Shown here in pieces: positions 13,367 to 15,901 of a DNA stretch of 32,720 bases (position 1 is its first letter; each line of letters begins with the position of its first letter). Both the position numbers and the translations under genes were made by a program. The notes below the pieces were generated by a model. That model saw only the letters and a program-made list of their open reading frames with translations, searched no databases and was not told the origin of the DNA. Origin of the DNA: Planctomycetaceae bacterium (GTDB taxonomy: Bacteria; Planctomycetota; Planctomycetia; Planctomycetales; Planctomycetaceae); assembly GCA_029243145.1 (NCBI GenBank), contig JAQWSQ010000224.1:1-32720 (forward strand), written 5' to 3'.

Positions 13367-14236
13367 TCAAGAACCGTTTTCAGGTTGATATCGAGGTTGG
13401 CCACCCCAGCCGAGTTTGCGATGTAAAGTGCGGTAATAACTGTGTCCTCCGAAGCGAGCCAGCTTGAAAGTGACGGGAGCTTTGCGGACGACCAGTTCGT
13501 CGCCGGGAGAGATGGGCCGTTGTAGTTGACCGTCAATCACAGACATGACTCCCTCCGGGACATTTGGAAACCGCATCAGATACTCGCAGTCAGCACTATC
13601 GACCAACGGACGATTTGTCAGTGTGTGTGGGCAGATTGGTGTGACGACAAAGGCGTCAAGGGCTTGACGCAAAATTGGGCCACCCGCAGAGAGTGAGTGT
13701 GCCGTCGATCCAATGGGCGTGCTGACAATCAGGCCATCACCGCTAAATGTGGCAACCTTGTCACCATCAATCAGAAGCTCAATATCAATGAGCCTGAGAG
13801 ACGCCGCGGAAACCGCCACAACTTCGTTCAGCCCGAGAACGACTTCTTCCGTGCCATCCGCTTTGCGATGAACACACTCGAACATTAGGTGCTCTTCGAT
13901 GTGAAAATCTTGCTGGCAGATCGTTTGCAGGTTGTTATGCAAATCTTCAGGCTGCAAGTCGGCGAGAAATCCAAGACGGCCGAGATTGATTCCTAGAATC
14001 GGGATTTGATTGCGTCCGAGGATACGAGAAGAGTGAAGAATCGCGCCATCTCCCCCAAGTACGATCAGGAGGTCTGCTTCGATGGTCTCCGGCACGGACT
14101 CAGGTGTGATCGGAGGGTCGAGTAACTCGACCTCTGGTTGATTGTCCAACAGCGACTTCAATTCCGCATAAACGGTTTTCGTCCGTTCTGACCAGTCGCG
14201 TGTGAACACAGAAATGCGAAGTTGTTTTGAGTTCAT
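13367..14236 (-). CDS. nadK: NAD kinase
   Basis: A 289-residue cytoplasmic NAD kinase, which phosphorylates NAD to NADP. The family signatures are present in order: GGDG (61-64) in LIVLGGDGAIL, the LNE motif with N137-E138, and the glycine-rich segment GDGLIVSTPIGSTAHSLSAG (166-185). IDGQ (234-237) is in the expected C-terminal place. The longest frame starts with TTG at 14311; I chose the ATG at 14236, where homology to the family begins (KQLRISVFTRD), although its ribosome site is poor. It is divergent from the interrupted gene at 14361 and probably co-transcribed with the downstream propeller gene. Assignment is secure. Confidence 0.95.
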   Translation of the reverse strand: MNSKQLRISVFTRDWSERTKTVYAELKSLLDNQPEVELLDPPITPESVPETIEADLLIVLGGDGAILHSSRILGRNQIPILGINLGRLGFLADLQPEDLHNNLQTICQQDFHIEEHLMFECVHRKADGTEEVVLGLNEVVAVSAASLRLIDIELLIDGDKVATFSGDGLIVSTPIGSTAHSLSAGGPILRQALDAFVVTPICPHTLTNRPLVDSADCEYLMRFPNVPEGVMSVIDGQLQRPISPGDELVVRKAPVTFKLARFGGHSYYRTLHRKLGWGGQPRYQPENGS

Positions 14237-14360: not shown

Positions 14361-14801
14361 ATGAATTATCTCGCTCACGGAATTCGTTATCTTGATAACC
14401 CGTGGTTTCTCGCAGGAACTGCCACACCAGATTGGCTTTCTGTCGCTGATCGCAAAGTCAGGATGAGAGAACGATTGGTCCGTCCGCACCTCGATTCCGA
14501 GGATCAACGATTACAGGCCTATGCCGCCGGAGTTCTCCAGCATCTCGACGACGATCAGTGGTTCCACGAAACTGTGGCATTCTATGAGGTGACCTCTGAA
14601 GTGGCGGAATGTTTTCGGAAACTTCCCAATCAGGATGATGGCTTTTTGCCCGGCTTTCTTGGTCATATTACGACTGAACTGCTCTTGGACAGGATGTTGA
14701 TGGAACATTTTCCACAGGTGATTGACCAATATTATCAGGTGATTTCAGGCTTACCGGCGTTAGAAATCCAAAAATACACAAACATCATGGCGGCAAAATA
14801 A
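14361..14801 (+). CDS. N-terminal part of an uncharacterised gene cut by an in-frame TAA
   Basis: This 146-codon ORF begins MNYLAHGIRYLDNPWFLAGT, includes TPDWLSVADRKVR and AGVLQHLDDDQWFHET, and ends at TAA 14799-14801 just after NIMAAK. The His/Asp-rich helical pattern (QHLDDD..FH, GHITTELLLDRML) recalls a planctomycete-type conserved protein and might be a metal-dependent helical fold; no function is known to me. The same frame stays open for 81 more codons after the TAA (14802-15047), so the protein appears truncated. The ATG at 14361 is chosen over the TTG at 14334 because the MNYLAH start follows AGGATAAAG. Divergent from nadK and immediately upstream of an epimerase gene. Confidence 0.75.
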   Translation: MNYLAHGIRYLDNPWFLAGTATPDWLSVADRKVRMRERLVRPHLDSEDQRLQAYAAGVLQHLDDDQWFHETVAFYEVTSEVAECFRKLPNQDDGFLPGFLGHITTELLLDRMLMEHFPQVIDQYYQVISGLPALEIQKYTNIMAAK

Positions 14802-15047
14802 AGTGATCAACTTGCCAAATTCATCAATATTTTCAGTGAGATTCAGTTTCTACGCGACTATCTCGACTCACGACAGTTACTCAGACGCTTGAATCAGGTT
14901 CTTCGTCGAGTCAAACTACAACCTCTTCCTGATGACGCAGAACACACACTCAACTCTGCATGGGAGATTGTGGTTCATAGAGGTTGGGATTTACTGCCTA
15001 CCGAAAAGTACCCGTTCGACGAAATTCTTTTTCACAACACGCATTGA
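14802..15047 (+). pseudogene. In-frame continuation after a premature TAA (C-terminal part of the 14361 gene)
   Basis: After the TAA at 14799-14801 the identical frame runs through 81 sense codons, starting SDQLAKFINIFSEIQFLRDY, through LLRRLNQVLRRVKLQPLP and GWDLLPTEKY, to a TGA at 15045-15047. It reads as helical protein and flows on from the upstream ORF. No ATG lies in this part, only TTG and GTG codons. The TGA overlaps the ribosome site of the next gene, 11 bases before its ATG at 15059, which is ordinary operon spacing. The simplest reading is a nonsense mutation in a 227-codon gene; stop-codon readthrough or a sequencing error are the alternatives. Confidence 0.75.
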
Positions 15048-15058
15048 AGGGTTTCCTG

Positions 15059-15901
15059 ATGAAATATGGAATGAATCTGTTGCTTTGGACATCAGATGTC
15101 ACAGAGGAACATTTCGGACTCCTCGAAAATCTCAAAGAGTGGGGCTACGACGGTGTCGAACTGCCCGTTTTTGATATGGACGAATCAAAATTCAAAAATG
15201 TGGGTGACAAACTGACTGAATTGGGGCTCGGGCGAACGGCCGTTACTGTTTGTACTCCCGAAGAAAACCCGATTTCTGATGACGCTTCGATTCGTGCCGC
15301 GGGTTTGTCACGACTGCAAAAAGCAATTGATATGTGTGCCGCTGCAGGTGTGACTCATTTACTGGGACCGATTCACTCCGCTTTAGGAGAGTTTCCCGGT
15401 CGTGGTCGCACTGAAGAAGAATGGAAGTGGGGCCAAGAGATTCTGGCTCAGGCCGCCGATCATGCCAAAGCCAACGACGTCACTTTAGTGTGTGAATATC
15501 TGAATCGCTTTGAATGTTACTTTCTGAATTGTGCAGATGATGCCGCTCGATTCACACGAGAAGTCGGACATTCACATTTGAAGATGATGTACGACACTTT
15601 CCATGCAAACATCGAAGAGAAGAGCATTACTGATGCTGTCAAAAGTTGTGCAGATCAAATGGTGCATGTTCACATTTCAGAAAATGACCGTTCCACTCCG
15701 GGTGAAGGTGGAGTCAATTGGGATGAATCGTTTGCCGCGTTGAAATCGATTGATTACGACGGTTGGTTCATGATTGAAGCGTTTGGTTTGTCGCTTCCCG
15801 ATCTCGCGGCTGCCACCAAAATCTGGCGTCGTATGTTTACCACAGAGGAAGCCTTGGCGAAGAATGGTCTGGCCTTTATGAAATCTCGTTGGGAAGGCTG
15901 A
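15059..15901 (+). CDS. Sugar phosphate isomerase/epimerase, D-psicose 3-epimerase-like TIM barrel
   Basis: A 280-residue cytoplasmic xylose-isomerase-like TIM barrel. By family comparison the metal site is E146 (in CEYLNRFE), D179 (in MYDTFHANIEE), H205 (in VHISEND) and E240 (in MIEAFG). The order and spacing match the D-psicose/D-tagatose 3-epimerase site as I remember it, including E-x-L-N-R-F-E and DTFHxNIEE. These enzymes epimerise ketoses at C3 with Mn or Co; the exact substrate is uncertain. The longer frame beginning at 14984 is not used, because ATG 15059 has AAGG about 8 bases upstream and a typical MKYGMNLLLW start. It follows the interrupted gene by 11 bases and ends at a strong terminator. 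Confidence 0.88.
   Translation: MKYGMNLLLWTSDVTEEHFGLLENLKEWGYDGVELPVFDMDESKFKNVGDKLTELGLGRTAVTVCTPEENPISDDASIRAAGLSRLQKAIDMCAAAGVTHLLGPIHSALGEFPGRGRTEEEWKWGQEILAQAADHAKANDVTLVCEYLNRFECYFLNCADDAARFTREVGHSHLKMMYDTFHANIEEKSITDAVKSCADQMVHVHISENDRSTPGEGGVNWDESFAALKSIDYDGWFMIEAFGLSLPDLAAATKIWRRMFTTEEALAKNGLAFMKSRWEG

Follow-up and report, generated by a model that had tools for sequence, protein, structure and literature searches.

A planctomycete gene that is normally intact, present in one copy, and some 228 codons long is interrupted here by a single in-frame TAA codon. The gene lies in a window of 32,720 nucleotides (the whole stretch of DNA that was analyzed), corresponding to contig 11 of a planctomycete draft genome (5.2 Mb, 232 contigs, 1.6% contamination). 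The stop is private to this genome, nearly all relatives carry the gene intact, and the coding segment that follows the stop was constrained until recently. On balance, we lean slightly toward a real and very young nonsense mutation as the cause, with an error in the assembled consensus nearly as likely.

Reading frame, gene order, and homologs

On the forward strand, the frame opens at ATG 14361, meets the in-frame TAA at 14799-14801, and then continues open in the same frame to TGA 15045-15047, which is separated by 11 bases from ATG 15059, the start of the next gene. These features, including the 11-base spacing, had been claimed in a sequence-only reading of this DNA, and each was confirmed on the sequence. 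The first part (14361..14801, + strand) consists of 146 codons and the TAA, while the continuation (14802..15047, + strand) consists of 81 sense codons and the TGA. A mechanical ORF caller lengthens the ORF to TTG 14334; the correct start is ATG 14361, as the motif MN(Y/F)xxH occurs at the same place and forms the N terminus of all homologs. An open frame of 81 codons would arise by chance with a probability of ∼1% at this base composition. The decisive evidence for a single gene, however, is homology rather than this figure.

Gene order around the interrupted gene is common to the window's genome, its sister genome (G002), and a more distant congener (G001). In all three, the gene is flanked by a divergently oriented NAD kinase (13367..14236, - strand) and by a downstream TIM-barrel gene resembling sugar epimerases and isomerases (15059..15901, + strand). 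Judged through its ortholog in the sister genome, the latter gene is related to D-psicose 3-epimerase and hydroxypyruvate isomerase, with scores under the family cutoffs. The sister genome, 89% identical at the DNA level, is a metagenome-assembled genome (MAG; isolate SFB_South_Co_60), with the locus on contig JAURQH010000053.1.

The sequence-only reading had proposed a split gene, to be checked by looking for homologs that span both parts without a stop and by comparing the site in relatives. Such homologs were readily found. Of 40 genomes, 29 contain a relative of the first 146 residues, and the homologs, translated to their own stops, are proteins of 216 to 233 amino acids that align from MNYxAHG to the C terminus across the TAA site (locus L012 was excluded from this alignment). 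The copy in the sister genome encodes 228 amino acids, is 90% identical in protein sequence, carries CAA (Gln) at the TAA site, and ends with a TGA at the same position; the congener carries GAG (Glu) at the site. All of the family's invariant His, Asp, and Glu residues (H6, D24, H61, D64, D65, H69, H102, E106, and D110) fall in the first part. Within the segment after the TAA, residues L151, L164, Y167, R176, Q179, R183, and L211 are invariant, and RLNQVxxRVxL is the most conserved C-terminal block of the family. The earlier claim that the downstream segment is coding, made on the basis of its RLNQVLRRVKL block, is thereby borne out. As such, homology proves the two parts to be a single gene.

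In a profile search of the taxonomic family, the gene was matched in 149 of 170 genomes, and among the listed matches from these genomes the window's copy alone has an internal stop. No match was found in 8 of the 130 good-quality genomes of the family, indicating that the gene is dispensable and can be lost in nature. An apparently conserved internal TAA in nine genomes of another genus was rejected upon inspection of the sequences, where this codon is the natural end of the protein at residue 218.

Selection on the segment after the stop

Relative to the sister genome, dN amounts to 0.048 upstream of the stop and 0.052 downstream, while dN/dS is 0.08 upstream and 0.27 downstream. The difference in dN/dS was considered as a sign of relaxed selection on the tail and rejected, given that dN is equal on both sides. 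The higher downstream ratio reflects a low dS within a stretch of reduced divergence at ∼14800 to 15600. To gauge the age of the stop, replacements in the tail were assigned to the branch of the window's genome with the congener as the outgroup, giving two clear and five ambiguous cases (at most 7). A tail evolving neutrally since the split from the sister genome would be expected to have accumulated at least 18 replacements on this branch (P ∼ 0.002), and this shortfall indicates that the lesion is young. Taken with the conserved RLNQVxxRVxL block, the lack of relaxed selection in the tail implies that the stop is either recent or not real. From these sequence comparisons, the tail appears to have been under selection until recently, if it is not so still.

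At positions 14800 to 15600, the window diverges from the sister genome by 6 to 11%, versus mostly 10 to 20% on either side, and the stretch covers the tail of this gene together with much of the next gene. It is perhaps a recombined segment.

Cause of the in-frame TAA

The explanation we favor is that one very recent single-base nonsense change interrupts the gene in this genome, the simplest such change being a C-to-T transition that would convert a Gln codon to TAA. Should this base be genuine, translation would stop after 146 residues, and the product would be missing the C-terminal third of its helical bundle, including the conserved RLNQVxxRVxL helix. The truncated enzyme would most likely be dead or unstable, with loss of function. 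The locus thus resembles a unitary pseudogene formed by nonsense mutation in that a lone premature in-frame stop is confined to one genome and relatives have intact single-copy orthologs at the same place. It differs in that the present lesion is too young for further decay to show. Because no such decay is visible, an assembly error is also a possible cause of the TAA at 14799-14801.

Such an error, either a base-level mistake or a base from a minority strain in a metagenome-assembled consensus, would leave the gene intact in the living organism, and we consider it to have a somewhat less than even chance. The draft state of the window's genome and its contamination, along with the sister genome being a MAG, suggest that it too was metagenome assembled. 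In addition to the undecayed tail, this explanation draws on other lesions in the same genome. A kinase-family search had turned up further in-frame TAA codons, which led to a survey of 35 regions (the window and 34 others) against the sister-genome regions expected to be orthologous; all lesion rates given here refer to these sampled regions. Across 345 orthologs (150k codons), the survey retrieved three clear nonsense codons in mid-gene positions along with a single +1 frameshift, amounting to ∼1% of genes with such lesions. The lesions are scattered, stem from different changes (CAA to TAA twice, TAT to TAA, and the frameshift), and affect genes that are otherwise well conserved. Besides the interrupted gene, the nonsense codons affect an ATPase-like gene of 832 codons, with TAA at codon 570 (L120:6933; contig 64, ∼31933) where the sister genome has CAA, and a conserved Ser/Thr protein kinase, with a mid-gene TAA (L123:12986; contig 114, 12986) where the sister genome has TAT (Tyr) at an overall identity of 91%. 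The frameshift is a one-base insertion in a conserved gene (L140:4310-4350; contig 165).

The survey also retrieved a TAG near the C terminus of a gene on contig 231. Two further kinases of this genome look damaged, one by an in-frame TAA in the protein kinase domain (FDVG*IDGQHY; L105, contig 166, 6607-7374), with no sister ortholog in the sampled regions, and the other by an apparent +1 A frameshift, where a short A run seems to hold an extra A (L103, contig 6, near 5250). The first of these kinases adds one more TAA on the side of a consensus error. Against such an error, the lesion rate in the sister MAG is comparable and not significantly lower (Fisher P ∼ 0.2). There, the reverse comparison over 347 genes gave one clear mid-gene stop, a TAG in a 615-codon gene where the window's genome has Trp (L134:2390, contig 23), and one possible N-terminal stop. 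Moreover, interruption of ∼1% of genes is usual for real bacterial genomes. A frequency of ∼1% of genes with single lesions therefore fits young pseudogenes and draft-assembly errors alike.

The sequence-only reading had offered three options for the stop, of which nonsense mutation and base-call error both stand. The third, readthrough of the TAA, whether programmed or tolerated, to give a full-length protein alongside the short one, is very improbable. It would account for a tail that is constrained and in frame; however, a stop conserved among relatives ahead of a coding tail was not observed, as no relative among the listed matches from the 149 genomes shares it. The RNA after the stop contains no stimulating structure and folds no better than shuffled sequences (z of 0.6 to 1.2). 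Likewise, none of the 44 tRNA genes identified encodes a suppressor with a stop anticodon, a count that covers an incomplete draft, in which some genes may be missing, and a scored subset of the first-look candidates. TAA serves as an ordinary terminator here, ending 123 of 374 long ORFs in the sampled DNA (about a third), similar to 131 of 367 in the sister genome, and is therefore not reassigned; three clear mid-gene TAA codons over 150k codons are too few for reassignment. All three of these stops and the kinase case on contig 166 are TAA, yet tolerance of in-frame TAA in this lineage through low-level ochre readthrough is more doubtful still. A TAA-only bias of the lesions was considered and rejected, since the lesions also include the C-terminal TAG and frameshifts, and TAG stops are present in the sister genome.

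With respect to tRNA genes in general, contig 86 of the window's genome carries a compact cluster of four (Tyr, Lys, Leu, and Glu; L081, 12700-13200), two of which are low scoring. The cluster repeats anticodons present elsewhere in the genome and is possibly of mobile-element origin.

Finally, the idea that the parts are two genes, or that the short form is natural and the tail reinitiated, is suggested solely by the stop that separates them and has a negligible chance of being correct. It is refuted by homologs that read through the TAA site as single proteins. The tail (14802-15047) lacks an ATG and any plausible start close to the stop, its in-frame starts being limited to the late TTG 14889 and GTG 14970.

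The result is mainly of value for annotation. The record of this gene should call it interrupted, or a probable assembly error, instead of a short protein or a recoding event, and the stop represents a recent loss-of-function mutation or an assembly base error, with no new mode of decoding.

Protein family and predicted structure

The intact copy from the sister genome is predicted with high confidence to be all helical (pLDDT of 94, pTM of 0.90). In this model, the segment that follows the TAA site contains four main helices (residues 151-161, 163-168, 170-183, and 193-211). Truncation at residue 146 would remove all four, probably leaving a short product unable to fold properly.

The nearest known protein family is represented by the acyl carrier protein (ACP) phosphodiesterase AcpH (PF04336; acpH of Escherichia coli), which is comparable in length and, by eye, resembles the present family at the MNF/YLAH start. 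Weak, below-threshold similarity to PF04336 was detected in 18 of 26 homologs of the interrupted gene, with a best E value of 2e-4. The read-through protein from the window and the sister protein score 13.4 to 13.5 bits, about half of the Pfam gathering cutoff of 27, and neither they nor any other protein of the window's genome constitutes a PF04336 match. The family thus differs from AcpH in falling below the Pfam cutoff, and a profile comparison with E. coli AcpH likewise gave no significant match. No solved structure matched by sequence, no convincing match was found by fold (best Z of 3.4), and no relatives were found in viral contigs. The distant likeness to AcpH suggests a phosphodiesterase-like hydrolase as the product, and by sequence this uncharacterized planctomycete family may be one of distantly AcpH-like hydrolases. 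The full-length family, present in most genomes of this planctomycete family and with strictly conserved His, Asp, and Glu residues, may merit study in an intact relative.
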